Below, one piece after another: positions 8,333 to 46,340 of a stretch of 64,000 nt of DNA. The notes under the pieces were generated by a model that did no database searches, was not told the DNA's origin, and saw only the letters and a program-made list of their open reading frames with translations. Numbering within the stretch: the first letter of the stretch is position 1; each line of letters opens with the position of its first letter. Both the position numbers and the translations under genes were made by a program. The DNA is from Aequorivita xiaoshiensis (GTDB taxonomy: Bacteria; Bacteroidota; Bacteroidia; Flavobacteriales; Flavobacteriaceae): the NCBI RefSeq assembly GCF_022008395.1, contig NZ_JAIRBB010000002.1, positions 1 through 64,000 of the forward strand. Direction: 5' to 3'.

Positions 8333-8403
8333 TTTGTTAAATTGATAGGGTTTAATTTAAAGCAACATTCGCGGTTTTCGCCAGAGGTTGAATTAAGTGG
8401 GTG

Positions 8404-37568: not shown

Positions 37569-38144
37569 ATGAATAAAATTACTTTGTTCTTATGTTTTTT
37601 AATCATGAATGTTCTCACTGCGCAGAATGTTGTGGAAATTCCATGGGGACAAGGGATTAATGAATCTGTAGCAAGTCCTACTATAGAAGTTGGAGATACA
37701 GTGTTATGGACTTGGAAAGATAATTCTCAAAAAAGTGTTAGCAGTATTTACGGAGGAAGTGAAGATTTTGATAGTGGGTTGTTAACCGGTTCAAAAAGTC
37801 GATTTTCACATACCTTCAATAAAACAGGGGTAACCGAATATCAAAGTCACGGCAATTCGACATTACAGGGCAAAATAACGGTAGTAAATAAACTTTCAAC
37901 TGAAGATAAGTTTATTAAAAATCTGAACTTTTATCCAAATCCAGTAAAATCAGATTTGACTATTGCCTCAATTTTTAAAGTAGATAGTTATCAAATTTAC
38001 AATGTTTTAGGATCCTTAATTTCTGAAGGAAAAGGAGGGGGTAATTACGTTCAAGTGGATATGAGGAGACTAAACAGTGGATTTTATTTTCTGAAAATAA
38101 TTTCAGGAAGTATGCAAACAACTTTGAAGATTGCTAAAAAATAG
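37569..38144 (+). CDS. Cupredoxin-like protein with T9SS sorting domain
   Basis: This 191-residue protein has a signal peptide (1-18), a cupredoxin-like domain (about 20-115: EVGDTVLWTWKDN, FDSGLLTGSKSRFSHTFNKT, GKITVVNK) and a C-terminal type A sorting domain (FYPNPVKSD, YNVLGSLISEG, LNSGFYFLKI, TLKIAKK) for export by the type IX system. Aligned to plastocyanin-like proteins, the Cu ligands His, Cys, His, Met appear as Lys, Ser, Asn, Leu (QKSVSS and YQSHGNSTLQG). It should therefore not bind type 1 copper and may be an adhesin or scaffold. It is a single gene. Confidence 0.85.
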   Translation: MNKITLFLCFLIMNVLTAQNVVEIPWGQGINESVASPTIEVGDTVLWTWKDNSQKSVSSIYGGSEDFDSGLLTGSKSRFSHTFNKTGVTEYQSHGNSTLQGKITVVNKLSTEDKFIKNLNFYPNPVKSDLTIASIFKVDSYQIYNVLGSLISEGKGGGNYVQVDMRRLNSGFYFLKIISGSMQTTLKIAKK

Positions 38145-40039: not shown

Positions 40040-40834
40040 TTAACTTTTAATAATGAAACGTCCTGTTTCTCTATCAAAATCAATGGTTTCTTTTGGAAAT
40101 AAAGCATCGAATTTCCCTAACTCTATTAATTTACACGGACTTTCAAAATGGTTTTCATCATTTGCCATTACCAACATTTTATCTGTCAGCTGAATTGCCA
40201 AATCTATTTCGTGCGTAGAAAAGAATATCGTTTTTTGGGTTTCTGAAGCTAGTTTCTTTAATAATTTAAGAACATAGGCCCGATGATAAAGGTCGAGATG
40301 TGTTGTTGGTTCGTCTAGAATTATTATAGGAGTATCCTGCGCTATTGCTCGTGCTATAGCCACTCGTTGCATCTGTCCATCACTTAGTTCAAAACATTTT
40401 CGATGGGCTAGTGTAGTGGTTTCAGTTGCTTCTAAAGCGAAATTTATAGCATTTTTATCTTCTACTGTTATCGTGCCAATCCAGTTGGTGTAAGGTTGCC
40501 TTCCCAGGGATATCATTTCTAAAACTGATAAGTTTTTAGAGGCTGGGGCTTCAGTTAATACAACGCTTAATTCAGTTGCAAGTTCAAAAGAAGTATAGCT
40601 GTTAATGTATTTTTCCTTCAGAAGCACATCGCCTCTTAAAGGGGTTTGCATTCCAGTTAAAGTACGTAAAAGTGTAGATTTTCCAATGCCATTGGCACCT
40701 ACAAGCCCGACTAATTCGCCTTTTTTAATTGAAAAGTTAATGTCTTTGGCAATTACAGAATCCCTCTTTTTGTTGGAGTAGCCAACAGCAAGATTTTTAG
40801 CTTCTAAAATGATATTTTTTTCTACCGAAGCCAT
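40040..40834 (-). CDS. ABC transporter ATPase, BtuD/FecE type
   Basis: This 264-residue ATPase belongs to the cobalamin/iron-siderophore importer group. Walker A is GANGIGKST (about residue 45), the signature is LSDGQMQRVAIARAI, Walker B is IIILDEPTTHLDL and the switch is FSTHEIDLA. It overlaps the permease stop codon by one base (TAATG), so the three genes SBP, permease and ATPase form one tight operon. The neighbouring B12 riboswitch, receptor and BtuG-like gene favour cobalamin as substrate. Confidence 0.9.
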   Translation of the reverse strand: MASVEKNIILEAKNLAVGYSNKKRDSVIAKDINFSIKKGELVGLVGANGIGKSTLLRTLTGMQTPLRGDVLLKEKYINSYTSFELATELSVVLTEAPASKNLSVLEMISLGRQPYTNWIGTITVEDKNAINFALEATETTTLAHRKCFELSDGQMQRVAIARAIAQDTPIIILDEPTTHLDLYHRAYVLKLLKKLASETQKTIFFSTHEIDLAIQLTDKMLVMANDENHFESPCKLIELGKFDALFPKETIDFDRETGRFIIKS

Positions 40835-41865
40835 TAAAAAAATAGTTTTCGTTTACGTACTAAAAGCCAAATTACCACCGGAGCGCCTATTAATGAGGTT
40901 ATTGCATTAATTGGTAAAGTGAACTCGCTGAAGGGTAATTGAGCAATAGTGTCGCAGATTAGCATTAACAAACTCCCACAAAGTAAAACAGCCGGAAGTA
41001 AAATTAGGTGATTTGAAGTTTTGTAAAACTGTCGCACCAAATGCGGTACTGCTAAACCAACAAAGGCAATCGGACCAACAAATGCCGTAATTCCTCCTGC
41101 CAAAATACTTGTTGCTAATATGATTATAAAGGTTGTTTTTTTTATGTGAATTCCCATACTTTTCGCATAGTTTTCACCTAATAATAGCGCGTTTAAAGAC
41201 TTACTGCTTATGATGCTTAAGATTAGCCCAGCGAAAAAACAAAGGCTTAATATAGTAACACCTTGCCAAGATTGATTTCCTAAGCTGCCAAACGACCAAA
41301 AGATATACTGCTGTAATTGTTCTGCATTACTAAAATATGAGAGTACCGAAACTACCGCTGTAGTAACACTCCCAAACATAAGTCCGATAATTAAAATAGC
41401 CATAGTATCCTTTATTTTGAATGTTACAGCTAACACTGCCAACAACACTAAAAAGCTACCTAAAGCAGAAGCGATAACTAAGCTCCATTGGCTTAGTAAC
41501 ATTGTTCCAAAAAAGCCTCCAAATGCACTTGCGCCTAAAATTAAAATAGCAACTCCTAAGCTTGCTCCACTGCTTAAACCTAAAACAAATGGACCTGCTA
41601 GAGGATTTCTAAATAAGGTTTGCATCAACAATCCCGAAATTGCTAATCCGCCTCCTGCTAGCATTGCTGTAATTGCTTTTGGGAGTCGATAATCAATTAA
41701 TATATATTCCCAAGTAGTTTTTGTTGAGCCATTTCCAACGAATACTGAAATGATTTCTTTAAGTGGAATTGAAACAGAACCCATACTCAAATTAACCAAA
41801 AATGCAGCGAGCAGTATGAGTAGAAGTACCAAAAAATGAATTCGATATGATGGCGAAGTCTGCAT
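40834..41865 (-). CDS. FecCD/BtuC-type ABC permease
   Basis: This 343-residue FecCD-family permease has about ten TM helices. Landmarks are IDYRLPKAITAMLAGGGLAI, NPLAGPFVLGLSSGASLG and GPIAFVGLAVPHLVRQFYKTSNHLILLPA, which contains the coupling helix region. The overall signature is shared by BtuC and siderophore permeases, so substrate is inferred from context (B12 locus). It overlaps the genes on both sides by one base. Confidence 0.92.
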   Translation of the reverse strand: MQTSPSYRIHFLVLLLILLAAFLVNLSMGSVSIPLKEIISVFVGNGSTKTTWEYILIDYRLPKAITAMLAGGGLAISGLLMQTLFRNPLAGPFVLGLSSGASLGVAILILGASAFGGFFGTMLLSQWSLVIASALGSFLVLLAVLAVTFKIKDTMAILIIGLMFGSVTTAVVSVLSYFSNAEQLQQYIFWSFGSLGNQSWQGVTILSLCFFAGLILSIISSKSLNALLLGENYAKSMGIHIKKTTFIIILATSILAGGITAFVGPIAFVGLAVPHLVRQFYKTSNHLILLPAVLLCGSLLMLICDTIAQLPFSEFTLPINAITSLIGAPVVIWLLVRKRKLFF

Positions 41866-43013
41866 TAATTTAGTTTATCGAAAAAATGAAATTTATGATT
41901 TGGCAACATTTCAGGATGTAGAATTTTAATCAAATCCTTTAGCACTAAGTCTGGTCTATTTGGAGCTAATTCGTAATAAATTACACCTCCCTTTTCACCT
42001 TTTTTCATACTATAGGAATATACTTCCCCAGTTTTATAGGCTTTGAATTGGGCGTAAGCTTTACTGCCTTCTTTTAACTCTTCTAGAGAATTAAACTGCG
42101 CTGGACCAATCCAAAAATCTGCTTCAATACCTCTGTCTAACACCGATTCTAAACTTAAAGAAAGGCTTCCAGTTCCTTCAGAATCTCTCCAGAGGTAATC
42201 TCCGTTAGCATCTTGTATAAACTGTGCTCCCCAACTATTTCCCTGTGGCATATACCAAACATCTTTGTACATAGCACCACTAATTACGGTGGGCTTGTTT
42301 TTGGCTTCAGAAGCTAAATTCTTAGCTGAGATATATTCCGATTCAATTTTATTGAAAATGCTGTCGGCTTCTTTTTCTTTGTTGTAAAGTGCTCCAAAAA
42401 ACTTTATCCATTCAGCTTTTCCTAAAGGAGAAACCTCTGTCCAATCTGAATTATAAAGAACAGGAATTCTTGCATTTTGTATTGTTGAAAACGCAGAATT
42501 ATTACCATCAACGGCAAAACCAATAACAGCATCGGGGGAAAGATCGATAAGAATTTCAGTGTTTATGTCTTCGTTTTTACCCAACTCCTTAATTTCATTG
42601 TTTGAAATTCGTTTTCTAGTCTCTTCAGAAGAAATATAATTTAAATTAGGAAAACCGATTAGAGAATTTGTTTCTCCTAACATTTCTAAGGAAGGAATGT
42701 GAGTAGTAGAAGTTACAACTATTTGCTTTATAGGAATTTCAACCACTGCATCATAGTTTTCTTGATTTGGAAGGGTGGCATTTCTTTCAACTAAAGCATA
42801 GGTGAAAGTTTTATCTGTTCCTGGCCAAGGATTTTTTAAAGTGATTGTCTTATAACCTTCGAATGCTTTAATTTCAAAGCCCTTAGCATATTTTACTTCC
42901 AGTTTTTTGCCTTCAACTGAAACACTTTCTATAGATTCTTTAGTTTCATTTTTACAAGAGATAAATACTAAAGTGAAAAAGAATAAAACAATAAGATTTT
43001 TAAAACTTGGCAT
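41865..43013 (-). CDS. Substrate-binding lipoprotein, BtuF-like
   Basis: This 382-residue lipoprotein has a lipobox near residue 20 (TLVFISC) and a class III periplasmic-binding fold: the first lobe contains IVVTSTTHIPSLEMLGETNSLIGF, and the linker helix and second lobe follow. DLSPDAVIGF and ADFWIGPAQFNSLEEL are typical of the BtuF/FhuD family. It leads the operon, transcribed divergently from the riboswitch-controlled receptor. Cobalamin is the likely ligand by context, but a ferric chelate cannot be excluded. Confidence 0.85.
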   Translation of the reverse strand: MPSFKNLIVLFFFTLVFISCKNETKESIESVSVEGKKLEVKYAKGFEIKAFEGYKTITLKNPWPGTDKTFTYALVERNATLPNQENYDAVVEIPIKQIVVTSTTHIPSLEMLGETNSLIGFPNLNYISSEETRKRISNNEIKELGKNEDINTEILIDLSPDAVIGFAVDGNNSAFSTIQNARIPVLYNSDWTEVSPLGKAEWIKFFGALYNKEKEADSIFNKIESEYISAKNLASEAKNKPTVISGAMYKDVWYMPQGNSWGAQFIQDANGDYLWRDSEGTGSLSLSLESVLDRGIEADFWIGPAQFNSLEELKEGSKAYAQFKAYKTGEVYSYSMKKGEKGGVIYYELAPNRPDLVLKDLIKILHPEMLPNHKFHFFDKLN

Positions 43014-43156
43014 TATTGGCTATTTAAAGTTTTCGAGATGCGCAAAGGTATCATAAAGTTGTAGAAAGAATCAATAGCTTATTTTTTAAAATAGTATTCA
43101 AAAATACCAATCTTTAATCTTTACAGTAATTTCTTTTCATCGCTGAAATTAACGAC

Positions 43157-43164
43157 TATCTTTG
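43157..43164 (+). promoter_or_regulatory. -7 element of the riboswitch transcript
   Basis: TATCTTTG, a perfect TAnnTTTG element, lies a few bases before the riboswitch aptamer. The -33 box is weak (no TTG at the usual spacing). Confidence 0.6.
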
Positions 43165-43171
43165 CATCGAA

Positions 43172-43405
43172 TTTTGGTGAGCATATTTAAAAGTGCTCTT
43201 AAAAGGGAAATAGGTAAACGATTTTAATGCTTTTTACTCGAATGTTTAATTCGGCATTATAAAGATAACAATAATCCTATGCTGTTCCCGCAACTGTGAG
43301 TCGGCCTTAATACAATTTAAGGCGTGCATACTTCAAAACCACTGTCTTGATAATTTTTAGGATGGGAAGGTAGCACAAAAGACAAGCCAGGAGACCTGCC
43401 AGATT
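43172..43405 (+). promoter_or_regulatory. Cobalamin (B12) riboswitch
   Basis: The aptamer carries the family's conserved blocks in order: AAAAGGGAAATAGGT (43200s), GCTGTTCCCGCAACTGTGAG (about 43280), and the closing GCCAGGAGACCTGCC (43386-43400). Length of about 230 bases is normal. It lies 43 bases before the BtuB-like receptor start on the same strand, so adenosylcobalamin binding should repress the receptor and the BtuG-like gene when B12 is plentiful. Confidence 0.95.
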
Positions 43406-43447
43406 CATAACATAAAAACATCAAACTTTCGGGATAAAGGTTGAATT

Positions 43448-45280
43448 ATGAAAAATTTACATTACCATTTTATTTTGGCTATTTTTTTGTGCTCAACTTC
43501 AGTTGTGGCACAATTAGATTCTATTCAGCAGTTACCTGAAGTATTGCTTACCGACTCAAAACTTGTACACTTTTCTAAAGGATTCAAGGTAGAGAAGGTA
43601 AATGATTCAATTGTTGAACGAAACGCTACGTCGTTAACTGAAACTCTAACCTATAATTCTTTAATCTATTTTAAAGAAAATGGATTTGGGATGGTTTCAT
43701 CTCCTTCCTTTAGAGGCACGAATGCATCACAAACAGCTGTAATTTGGAATGGAATTAATATAAATTCAATTTTTACAGGTCAAACTGATTTTAATGTGAT
43801 TTCTCCTTTAAACTACGATAATATATCAATCCGAAGTGGTGGTGGTGGAGTTCAATATGGAAGTGGAGCAGTAGGTGGTAGTATTCATCTAAACAATACT
43901 TATACTTTTAAAAAAACAAATAAAACCAATGTAGGAATGCGCTACGGAAGCTTTTCTACGATAGCTGCAAATGCAAATACCACACAAACTTGGGATAATC
44001 ATTATCTAAATGTAGGTGTAGATTTTTTACGTTCAGAAAATGATTATGATTATGTAGGAAAGGGTAAAATAAATAAACATGGACAGTTTTTACGTTTTTC
44101 TGCCAAAGTAAATGAAGCTCGACGTATAAGAAATGGTGTTGTTACTTGGAATTCGAAGTACGTATATAGCGATAGAAATTTTTCAGGTAGTTTAAATACC
44201 ATTGGAAAGGATGCTTATAAAGATATTGCTACGAGAAACTTATGGCAGTTACAAAAACAAATAGGAATATTTAAAACAAAAGCTAGTTTCGCACACCTGT
44301 ACGAACAGTTTAGGTATATTCCAGATAGTGAAAAATCAAATTACGACCAAGGACAAGCAAACAGCTTTATTGGTGGATTGCAAACAGAGGTTTTATTTAA
44401 AAATAAAATTCGTTTAAACGGAAAAGCTGAATACACTTTGATAAATGGAAATGGTGATAATGTTGGCGATAATTCTCGTAGAACTTTGGCTGCAGTTTTA
44501 TTGCTAAATCATAAAGTTTCGGATGATTTTAATTATGGAGTAAACATTAGAAAAGAGTTTCTAAATGATTATGACAACCCCATTCTGTATTCAGCAGATG
44601 CAAAATTGAAGGTTTCCGACTTTTATTCACTTCGAATTAATGGTTCTAAAAACTACAGAATCCCAACCTTTAACGACCTTTATTGGTATGCTGGTGGAAA
44701 TATTGATTTAAAACCAGAAACCTCGTATCAGGTAGCGTTTGGACAACAGTTTTCCACTGGAAATTTAAAGACTGATGTTGCTGTTTACTATATTACCTCT
44801 GAAGATTTGATTAAATGGGTTCCTAAAAACGGAGGTATTTGGGAACCTGAAAATATAAGTGAAACTAGAAATTTTGGAGCTGAAGTTACTTTTGATTATA
44901 CTGTGGATATAGGCAAATCACAGATTTTAAATTTAAATGCCAACTATTCCTATACTAAGGCTGAAGATTTAAAAAAAGAGAAACAACTAATTTATGTACC
45001 TTTTCACAAAGCAACTGGATCGATATCATATAGCTATAAGAAGCTTTCAATTTATCTACAAGGATTGTTTAATGGGGAAGCTTACACAACTACCGATAAC
45101 AGTGATGTTGTAGATGCTTATTCTTTATTGAATCTGGGTGTAGATTACACATTTCCTGTCAATCCGAATATAAAACTAGGCGGTCGAGTAAAAAATGTTT
45201 TCAACAAATATTATGAAAATGTAGCGTATAGACCAATGCCTTCACGAAGTGTCGAAATATTTTTAAACTTTAATATATAA
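43448..45280 (+). CDS. btuB: TonB-dependent cobalamin receptor, BtuB-like
   Basis: This 610-residue outer-membrane receptor has a signal peptide ending VVA-QL, a plug domain (about 48-150) with SPSFRGTNASQTAVIWNGI and SGGGGVQYGSGAVGGSIHL, and a 22-strand type barrel ending SVEIFLNFNI. The length is that of BtuB, and there is no CarboxypepD N-domain. The cobalamin riboswitch 43 bases upstream and the BtuG-like gene 4 bases downstream make B12 the likely ligand. Confidence 0.9.
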   Translation: MKNLHYHFILAIFLCSTSVVAQLDSIQQLPEVLLTDSKLVHFSKGFKVEKVNDSIVERNATSLTETLTYNSLIYFKENGFGMVSSPSFRGTNASQTAVIWNGININSIFTGQTDFNVISPLNYDNISIRSGGGGVQYGSGAVGGSIHLNNTYTFKKTNKTNVGMRYGSFSTIAANANTTQTWDNHYLNVGVDFLRSENDYDYVGKGKINKHGQFLRFSAKVNEARRIRNGVVTWNSKYVYSDRNFSGSLNTIGKDAYKDIATRNLWQLQKQIGIFKTKASFAHLYEQFRYIPDSEKSNYDQGQANSFIGGLQTEVLFKNKIRLNGKAEYTLINGNGDNVGDNSRRTLAAVLLLNHKVSDDFNYGVNIRKEFLNDYDNPILYSADAKLKVSDFYSLRINGSKNYRIPTFNDLYWYAGGNIDLKPETSYQVAFGQQFSTGNLKTDVAVYYITSEDLIKWVPKNGGIWEPENISETRNFGAEVTFDYTVDIGKSQILNLNANYSYTKAEDLKKEKQLIYVPFHKATGSISYSYKKLSIYLQGLFNGEAYTTTDNSDVVDAYSLLNLGVDYTFPVNPNIKLGGRVKNVFNKYYENVAYRPMPSRSVEIFLNFNI

Positions 45281-45284
45281 CTAA

Positions 45285-46340
45285 ATGAAAACAATAAAAA
45301 GATCACTCTTAATTGCTTTATCAACATTATTTTTTGTCGCTTGTAGCAGTGATGATGACAATCAGCCAGTTTACGAACCTGCTGCATATGAGAATGGGGT
45401 TCTAGTTACTAATGAAGGTCCGTTTATGAACGGAAGCGGATCAATAACTTATATATCTAATGACTATGCAACTGTTTCTCAAAATATTTACAGAACTGTA
45501 AATGGTACAGAACTTGGAAATATTGTACAGTCTATGGGTTTTAATAACGAAAACGCTTACATAGTAGTAAATAATTCGAATAAAATTATGGTAGCCAACC
45601 GTTATAGTTTTGAAGCTATAGACTCTATTACAACAGGACTTGTTAATCCAAGATTTTTTGAAAGTATGGACGGGAATAAGGGGTACGTTACAAATTGGGG
45701 GGATCCAAACGACAACTCTGATGATTATGTAGCTGTTGTTGACTTGAGAACTAACGAAATTTCTGCAAATATTTCAGTAGGATTTGGACCAGAAAAAATG
45801 ATTTCTCATAACAATAAAGTATATGTAGCTCACCAAGGAGGTTATGGACAAAATAATTTAATTTCTGTAATTTCTGGAACATCTGTAGAGAGTACTATTA
45901 CTGTAGGTGATGTTCCAAATTCGATGGTAGTTAAAGACAATAATCTTTATGTACTTTGTGGAGGAATGCCTAGTTATGCGGGAACTGAAACTGCAGGTTC
46001 GTTAGTGAAAATAGACCTGTCATCGGGTCAGGTTTCAGAAACTTTTGCTTTTGAAACTATACAACACCCAAGTAACTTAACAATTGATGGTGATAACTTA
46101 TTATACAGCTTAGATGGCAAAGTTTACAAAGTAAATACTTCATCAATAACATTACCAGGAACAGAAATTATTGAAGGATACTTTTATGCACTACAAGCCA
46201 ATGATGGTAAGCTTTACGCTTCAGACGCGGGTGATTTTGCTAGTAAAGGTTCTTTATATATTTATGACCTTTCTACAAATCAACAAATACAAGATTTTCA
46301 AACAGGAATAGTTCCTGGCGGAATTTATTTCAACAATTAA
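45285..46340 (+). CDS. BtuG-like surface beta-propeller lipoprotein
   Basis: This 351-residue lipoprotein has Cys20 in FVACSSDDD, where the acidic stretch after the Cys matches the surface-export signal known for Bacteroidota lipoproteins. The body is a YncE/DUF5074-type beta-propeller, with repeated blades such as NKIMVANRYSFEAIDSITTG, VAVVDLRTNEISANISVGFG and NLISVISGTSVESTITVGDV. BtuG of Bacteroides is a surface beta-propeller that captures cobalamin and passes it to BtuB. Position right behind BtuB under a B12 riboswitch makes this gene a strong BtuG candidate. Confidence 0.87.
   Translation: MKTIKRSLLIALSTLFFVACSSDDDNQPVYEPAAYENGVLVTNEGPFMNGSGSITYISNDYATVSQNIYRTVNGTELGNIVQSMGFNNENAYIVVNNSNKIMVANRYSFEAIDSITTGLVNPRFFESMDGNKGYVTNWGDPNDNSDDYVAVVDLRTNEISANISVGFGPEKMISHNNKVYVAHQGGYGQNNLISVISGTSVESTITVGDVPNSMVVKDNNLYVLCGGMPSYAGTETAGSLVKIDLSSGQVSETFAFETIQHPSNLTIDGDNLLYSLDGKVYKVNTSSITLPGTEIIEGYFYALQANDGKLYASDAGDFASKGSLYIYDLSTNQQIQDFQTGIVPGGIYFNN

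Follow-up and report, generated by a model that had tools for sequence, protein, structure and literature searches.

The closest described systems to the one treated here are the BtuB2-BtuG2 and BtuB3-BtuG3 pairs of Bacteroides thetaiotaomicron, which passages of two papers describe as a riboswitch, a receptor gene and the gene of an adjoining surface lipoprotein propeller (PMC6143338; PMC10404256). Here we describe a similarly arranged locus of the flavobacterium Aequorivita xiaoshiensis, located at positions 40040-46340 of a stretch of 64,000 nucleotides (contig NZ_JAIRBB010000002.1, positions 1 to 64,000), hereafter called the window. It had originally been predicted to be a complete B12 uptake locus with a BtuG-like capture protein under riboswitch control. 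Among papers pairing BtuG with Flavobacteri, no title announced a flavobacterial BtuB-BtuG locus, and neither did passages of PMC12578637. In Flavobacterium psychrophilum a cobalamin riboswitch is placed before an unknown TonB receptor in passages of PMC9723704.

The btuB-btuG locus of the window

The expected cobalamin riboswitch was found at 43158-43417 on the plus strand (Rfam RF00174, 80.2 bits against a gathering threshold of 31.5, E 3.9e-18). It is followed on the same strand by btuB (43448-45280), coding for a TonB-dependent B12 receptor of 610 amino acids with plug and barrel domains, and by btuG (45285-46340), which starts four bases after btuB and codes for a surface lipoprotein propeller of 351 amino acids. 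The presence and order of the genes, and the homology, fold and export signals of their products, are direct observations.

BtuG is a DUF5074 protein (Pfam, 56.5 bits, cut-off 27.2). A phmmer search of the PDB matched it to BtuG2 (8bmx_D) with E 1.8e-28; the matches to 8bmx_D, 8bn0, 8bmy, 8p97 and 8okv ranged from 1.8e-28 to 6.2e-26, and the BtuG2 and BtuG3 chains, together with the Bacteroides uniformis homologue 3DSM, are among the nine best solved relatives (E 1.8e-28 to 1.2e-25). Comparing the predicted structure with BtuG had been suggested as a check. The AlphaFold2 model, for which 16 sequences were used (the window, Aequorivita, Arenibacter and one paralogue with a tail for the type IX secretion system, T9SS), had a predicted local distance difference test score (pLDDT) of 86 and a predicted template modelling score of 0.84. 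When it was compared to the PDB with Foldseek, ranks 1-16 were all BtuG chains, mostly cobalamin-bound (template modelling score, TM, 0.74-0.80), and BtuK1 was found at ranks 17, 18 and 20 (TM 0.68-0.70). The same propeller is encoded by A. sinensis (98% identity).

The lipid Cys20 of BtuG is followed by SSDDDN, which is the acidic export signal of the original prediction. Export signals were compared in Aequorivita, Arenibacter and the 40 family loci described below. At least two acidic residues were found in the six positions after the lipid Cys in 48 of 49 BtuGs, compared to 12 of 39 BtuF lipoproteins from the same loci. The means for these positions were 3.1 acidic and 0.2 basic residues in BtuG, and 1.2 acidic and 1.9 basic residues in BtuF. 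These numbers are based on a crude lipobox pattern, recognized in 49 of 55 BtuGs and 39 of 47 BtuFs, which took the wrong Cys in a few BtuFs and missed six BtuGs, five of them visibly having a correctly placed Cys. With BtuF as internal control, the surface-export signal thus marks BtuG and not BtuF. Judged by sequence, model and analogy to its homologues, which bind cobalamin with femtomolar to picomolar affinity and act as a lid on BtuB, BtuG of the window is a surface lipoprotein of the BtuG type and a predicted B12-capture protein.

The best solved relatives of the receptor were BtuB2 (8bmx_C, E 5e-39), BtuB3 (1e-38) and BtuB1 (1e-19) of B. thetaiotaomicron, whereas YncD/PqqU chains in the PDB were matched with E 2e-6. 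A receptor for pyrroloquinoline quinone (PQQ) or siderophores was ruled out mainly by these solved relatives, despite the siderophore-receptor score given below.

The arrangement was found to recur in Flavobacteriaceae. Of 40 family loci (L053-L092), 13 were chosen for long propeller frames and the rest came from the best matches, so that they do not represent a random draw. In these loci btuB was followed by btuG in 38 cases and directly preceded by a riboswitch in 36, and a divergent btuF was present in 28. Rfam detected the riboswitch in all 28 loci submitted, 11 of which belong to Aequorivita or Arenibacter. This recurrence argues that the arrangement is not due to chance. A propeller match (E 4e-17 or better) was found in at least 101 of 299 Flavobacteriaceae genomes, which is a lower bound because at most five candidates were scored per genome; most of the weaker rows match the T9SS tail of the query. 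From these counts the window locus represents a common B12 importer of Flavobacteriaceae; taken alone it is a further member of the BtuB-BtuG kind, ordinary for its family. BtuB-BtuG capture, defined in gut bacteria, is thereby extended to Flavobacteriaceae as a common arrangement. Like the B. thetaiotaomicron pairs, that of the window has the acidic export signal and an aromatic residue at the contact of loop EL8. It differs in having no further lipoprotein genes beside btuB-btuG, and no DUF4465 was found in the genome.

It is very probable that this locus serves B12 uptake, with a riboswitch-controlled BtuB-BtuG pair, BtuG as surface lid and BtuFCD supplied by a divergent operon outside the riboswitch, a second arm using the T9SS being probable. 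At low cellular cobalamin both riboswitches of the genome would permit expression, including that of btuB and btuG. Brought to the outer face of the cell by its acidic signal, BtuG, a lipidated propeller of seven blades, would then capture the corrinoid and, as a lid on BtuB, hand it over for import with TonB energy, after which BtuF would deliver it to BtuCD.

Several observations weigh against this. Among NCBIfam models, the receptor scored higher with a general siderophore receptor (99.5 bits, cut-off 223.5) than with the B12 receptor TIGR01779 (90.9 bits, cut-off 599.7), the B12-receptor models there being of the E. coli type, and no B12 model in NCBIfam reached its cut-off. The best NCBIfam model for BtuG was a PQQ-associated propeller (40.8 bits, cut-off 287). 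No meaningful match to a solved structure was found for the BtuF-like protein (phmmer, PDB). Of five BtuG2 pocket residues, Trp194, Trp272 and Tyr239 are changed and Tyr335 is Phe, and affinity or preferred corrinoid may therefore differ. Directly before the btuB start lies a short hairpin with CGGG in its loop (43421-43444, plus strand), which may form a kissing loop with CCCGCAAC of the aptamer; as such a partner is expected between aptamer and start codon, it would point to translational control, but it was no stabler than shuffled sequences (-4.5 kcal/mol for 43401-43452, z -0.67). Finally, expression, binding, hand-over and import are taken over from the Bacteroides homologues.

A second riboswitch operon with T9SS-tailed products

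The genome containing the window (3.06 Mb, 99.9% complete) has only one other cobalamin riboswitch match, located on another contig (C3:27747-27979, 90 bits, Rfam). The operon that it heads (C3:27747-30557, or L003:9748-12558) codes for a BtuG propeller and a companion, both with a T9SS tail; neither btuB nor another receptor gene was found there. The propeller is a BtuG paralogue of 430 residues, 41% identical to BtuG of the window, in which a signal-like N-terminus without Cys is followed by a DUF5074 propeller and a sorting tail for the T9SS. The companion, whose start overlaps the stop codon of the propeller gene, is 324 residues long and also ends in a T9SS tail. Type A sorting domains were found above cut-off in both proteins (PF18962, 47.5 and 45.4 bits, cut-off 27; TIGR04183, 51 and 45.5 bits, cut-off 23), and the genome encodes the T9SS component SprA. 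Since both products are predicted to be cargo of the T9SS, one arm of the regulon is probably anchored to the cell and the other secreted. What is new beyond the BtuB-BtuG kind is this regulon, which includes a BtuG with a T9SS tail and, in its partner, a hitherto undescribed domain.

The origin of the operon can be followed in related genomes. In A. capsosiphonis (L016/L152) and another Aequorivita (L153), the propeller-companion pair is located directly behind btuB-btuG under one riboswitch, and this order recurs in L053 and L054, which represent two genomes of another genus. A single protein of 657 residues combines the propeller with the companion in L055. In a maximum-likelihood tree of 69 BtuGs the seven T9SS propellers formed a monophyletic group (support 100/100) that was separate from BtuG of the window; its sister group (100/97) comprised the lipoprotein BtuGs of L053, L054, L055, L153 and L066. 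According to this tree T9SS BtuG most simply arose once, by duplication in a btuB-btuG operon, and the window genome carries a btuB-less derivative.

Between the riboswitch and the T9SS btuG lies a short open frame (L003:10015-10233, 72 amino acids) that reads like a signal peptide and, when aligned to L054, starts where btuB starts in the related operon. In the sister genome G597 (L151) the frame is likewise uninterrupted, its length differing by whole codons. It may be a relic or a leader peptide. It might be argued that the whole second locus is a decaying remnant which has lost btuB and the lipoprotein btuG, and whose T9SS genes are unexpressed or do not bind corrinoids. The short frame, with its btuB start and signal-like N-terminus, would fit such a remnant, as would the tree and leader sequence tying the operon to the btuB-btuG type found elsewhere. 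However, neither T9SS-tailed gene is truncated in any of four Aequorivita genomes, of which two share this btuB-less locus, the riboswitch still scores 90 bits, and the His at the upper-ligand position of the pocket (see below) is kept in all six T9SS propellers compared. We therefore consider decay rather unlikely, and the second locus is read as a B12-repressed, secreted capture arm, with binding and secretion predicted from sequence; such an arm is unreported in the open-access literature searched.

T9SS-tailed BtuGs are rare in the family. They were found in at least four of 299 Flavobacteriaceae genomes (G000, that of the window, G287, G076 and G121), the other long frames looked at being lipoproteins. 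The companion was present in four of 28 Aequorivita, in all four beside a T9SS-tailed propeller. The long BtuGs of L056-L062 (431-474 amino acids) were ruled out as T9SS forms; these lipoproteins have an N-terminal insertion of about 100 residues between lipid anchor and propeller. L172 has a T9SS-tailed protein beside btuG that is a possible BtuG propeller, with a BLASTP match of 1e-11 in an alignment running into the tail and a profile score of 24 bits.

The companion domain and predicted secreted B12 binders

The main domain of the companion comprises about 225 residues and is strongly conserved: an alignment (A2) of 21 sequences, which represent several families, has 45 invariant columns. 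Beyond the T9SS tail, nothing at useful scores was found in Pfam or NCBIfam, and there was no match in the PDB. A structure predicted from the single sequence had a pLDDT of 31.8 and the model was not used. The domain was found in 99 of 295 genomes of the class searched, which we take to be Bacteroidia, and strongly (E 4e-45 or better) in 90. Of 56 pattern stretches in viral contigs none was confirmed. Identity with the Bacteroides BtuL was not supported, as the companion is absent from the only locus with a 73% identical BtuG2 (L164), whose genome (G370) is not among the companion matches. A divergent DUF4465 was not supported either, there being no profile-profile match (probability 0.2%).

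We examined companion loci from 67 of the 89 strongly matching genomes other than that of the window. A T9SS tail was present on the companion in 64 of the 67, and the operon contained a btu gene or DUF4465 in 47 (btuB in 42, btuG in 42, DUF4465 in 31). By sequence pattern a riboswitch heads the operon in at least 39 of 67; this is a lower bound, as in seven further loci the operon begins at the edge of a contig, and Rfam adds L131, L190 and L203. The commonest order was riboswitch, btuB, T9SS-tailed DUF4465, T9SS-tailed companion and btuG. No btu gene was present in the operon in 20 loci. Among these, the sequence pattern detects a riboswitch in L209, L211 and L222, and Rfam also detects that of L209. 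In L130, L211 and L222, cobT-cobS-cobC is located directly behind the companion, with no btuB in the operon. In ten loci (L125, L166, L177, L179, L185, L188, L189, L199, L210 and L223) the companion is preceded by another T9SS-tailed protein, which the DUF4465 profile does not recognize. In the first four of these it has 418-430 amino acids and no Pfam domain except the tail. This protein possibly represents a further secreted family of corrinoid binders.

A profile of five T9SS-tailed DUF4465 proteins and one lipoprotein matched solved DUF4465 structures, the first being 9hmu (E 3.7e-34). Passages of PMC13398666 identify 9hmu as the B12 complex of the D5EK51 protein and report B12 binding for eight divergent DUF4465 members; the terms T9SS, 'type IX' and 'secret' do not occur in the main text of that paper. 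BtuJ/DUF4465 proteins are riboswitch-linked extracellular B12 binders according to passages of PMC12751083 and PMC13398666, and the T9SS-tailed forms in other Bacteroidia presumably are as well. BtuJ/DUF4465 of B. thetaiotaomicron are lipoproteins on vesicles, for which passages of PMC12751083 propose an analogous capture role, whereas the cargo encoded in the window genome is a T9SS-tailed propeller of the BtuG type. By title or the start of the abstract, the open-access papers searched contained no report of secreted B12 binders beyond the vesicle paper PMC12751083; passages of PMC9723704, PMC5561996, PMC12578637 and PMC12751083 were included, and subscription papers were outside the scope.

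The T9SS-tailed proteins might instead be exported for another purpose, such as adhesion or matrix formation, and share the riboswitch by accident. That 16 of the 67 companion loci have no btu gene, DUF4465, cobT-cobS-cobC or pattern riboswitch speaks for this, and corrinoid binding by T9SS-tailed proteins is itself our inference. On the other hand, at least one of these partners is present in the remaining 51, and the companion was found fused to DUF4465 in two loci (L140, L141) and to a BtuG propeller in one. An accidental link is thus improbable.

On balance we favor, with moderate confidence, a secreted B12 arm in Bacteroidia. It would consist of riboswitch-controlled corrinoid binders exported by the T9SS, often DUF4465 proteins or, for Aequorivita and a small number of relatives, a propeller of the BtuG type. 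In most cases these would be accompanied by the domain of about 225 residues. They would form either a layer anchored to anionic lipopolysaccharide or a released 'corrinophore' emptied by BtuB-BtuG; the flavobacterial His261 may in addition ligate cobalt and favor aquo- or hydroxocobalamin. Lineages with this arm would use the T9SS to send the propeller or DUF4465 binder, along with the companion, into the medium or the polysaccharide layer at the cell surface. This would widen the capture, and BtuG would take the vitamin over. If so, Bacteroidia have a dedicated secretion system by which B12 binders leave the cell under scarcity. The binders would be a protein counterpart of siderophores and affect B12 sharing in natural communities, and a conserved unnamed domain would receive its first function.

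The divergent operon, the BtuG pocket and the demand for B12

The divergent operon of the original prediction was found on the minus strand from 43013 to 40040. It codes for a BtuF-like periplasmic binding lipoprotein of 382 amino acids (41865-43013, Peripla_BP_2), a BtuC-like permease of 343 amino acids of the FecCD family (40834-41865) and a BtuD-like ATPase of 264 amino acids (40040-40834, ABC_tran). The Cys of the BtuF-like lipoprotein is followed by KNETKE. Since it lacks the acidic run of BtuG it presumably faces the periplasm. As a three-gene ATP-binding cassette (ABC) importer without riboswitch the operon resembles BtuFCD of the E. coli type and the riboswitch-less operon 4 of B. thetaiotaomicron. 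It differs from BtuFCD in that BtuF is a lipoprotein and NCBIfam scores are below the B12 cut-offs.

The description of the locus as complete and under riboswitch control holds for btuB-btuG but not for the ABC operon. The riboswitch is located on the btuB strand only and covers btuB-btuG, and Rfam detected no riboswitch before btuF in the window. A pattern search likewise detected none on this side in any of the 28 relatives whose btuF diverges. Control of the ABC operon by the same riboswitch was ruled out on this basis (0/28). Promoter-like elements fitting TAnnTTTG, which we take to be the flavobacterial -7 element, were present on both sides: TATCTTTG at the 5' edge of the riboswitch match (43157-43164, plus strand) and the similar TACCTTTG upstream of btuF (43043-43050, minus strand), with a second fit at 43099-43106. 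The pattern was found upstream of the relatives' riboswitches in 24 of 36 windows, compared to 6.6 expected from mononucleotide shuffles, and upstream of their btuF in 16 of 28, compared to 3.0 from shuffles.

The ABC operon could alternatively import a ferric siderophore or haem, its place beside btuB being historical. Permease and ATPase are FecCD/FecE-family proteins that stay below every B12 cut-off, the ATPase scoring 179 bits with FecE and 167 bits with a corrinoid ATPase (both below cut-off), and BtuF has neither a solved relative by phmmer nor a riboswitch on its side. However, the best NCBIfam model of the permease is a BtuC (207.7 bits, cut-off 334), and a divergent btuF beside riboswitch-btuB-btuG was, as stated, found in 28 of 40 family loci. 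In addition, the B12 ABC operon of B. thetaiotaomicron that has no recognized riboswitch is still regulated like the others, according to passages of PMC12751083. We consider import of a siderophore or haem improbable, and BtuFCD remains the preferred assignment.

The pocket of BtuG was compared in an alignment of 95 BtuGs, with the divergent BtuG-like protein of L063 (65 bits) left out. The five BtuG2 residues considered are those named in passages of PMC10404256 and not its full hydrogen-bonding set. According to that source, Trp272 constricts the cavity for the upper ligand and rotates to make room for adenosyl. In BtuG of the window it is replaced by His261, in an ungapped match (WPS/HPS). 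All 60 flavobacterial propellers differed from BtuG2 in having His at this position (54/54 lipoprotein BtuGs, of which about 16 are close copies from Aequorivita or Arenibacter, and 6/6 T9SS-tailed), while Ser, Gly, Asn or Tyr was found in 25 of 33 BtuGs of other families. Trp194 corresponds to His183 (His in 48/54 lipoprotein and 6/6 T9SS-tailed BtuGs), although pairwise phmmer shifts the alignment by one residue. Tyr316 is kept in the window (Tyr301) and in 50 of 54 flavobacterial lipoprotein BtuGs, whereas Tyr335 is replaced by Phe318 and Tyr239 by Pro229. BtuG3, which was solved with cyanocobalamin, has Ala at position 272, and Trp272 is therefore neither essential nor defining for BtuG.

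His261 could ligate cobalt. Aquo- and hydroxocobalamin are the expected form in sunlit water. A precedent for His at cobalamin is human transcobalamin, where passages of PMC4947154 name a "Cbl-binding His173" in a loop; no fold relation with BtuG is claimed.

Binding of another ligand (haem, PQQ or a sugar) by a propeller merely carried along with btuB would fit the loss of the two Trp positions narrowing the BtuG2 upper-ligand cavity and the PQQ-associated NCBIfam model, far below cut-off as it is, but is highly improbable given that sequence and fold rank BtuGs first, most of them cobalamin-bound, that btuB precedes btuG in 38 and the riboswitch btuB in 36 of 40 loci, that Tyr316 is kept in 50 of 54, and that cyanocobalamin-bound BtuG3 itself has Ala at 272.

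Growth of B. thetaiotaomicron on B12 requires loop EL8 of BtuB, which reaches into the pocket of BtuG, and Tyr538 of BtuB3 touches the vitamin (passages of PMC10404256). Trp465 of the window BtuB aligns with this Tyr538, and the position is aromatic in 48 of 49 flavobacterial BtuBs and 37 of 40 from other families. The alignment and the conserved aromatic residue support that BtuB-BtuG of the window share the lid-and-loop hand-over with B. thetaiotaomicron.

The B12 demand of the organism was assessed from its enzymes. PF02310 was found twice in the genome, in a methylmalonyl-CoA mutase (1323 bits, cut-off 876) and in the fused isobutyryl-CoA mutase IcmF (1761 bits, cut-off 1500). Neither MetE (PF01717; 10 of 14 controls positive) nor the MetH activation domain (PF02965; 7 of 14 controls positive) was matched in the genome. 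The recognized demand is therefore for adenosylcobalamin mutases, unlike B. thetaiotaomicron, which needs B12 for MetH. The recognized B12 enzymes of the host of the window locus are thus acyl-CoA mutases, and its methionine supply is accounted for by neither synthase signature.

Two further features of the window were observed. At 37569-38144 on the plus strand a small protein with a T9SS tail is encoded, presumably plastocyanin-like by its look, and similar T9SS-tailed proteins were found near the btu locus in L068, L070, L076, L082 and L084. An L19-Flavobacteria ribosomal protein leader (RF03130, 41 bits) is located at 8363-8390 on the minus strand.

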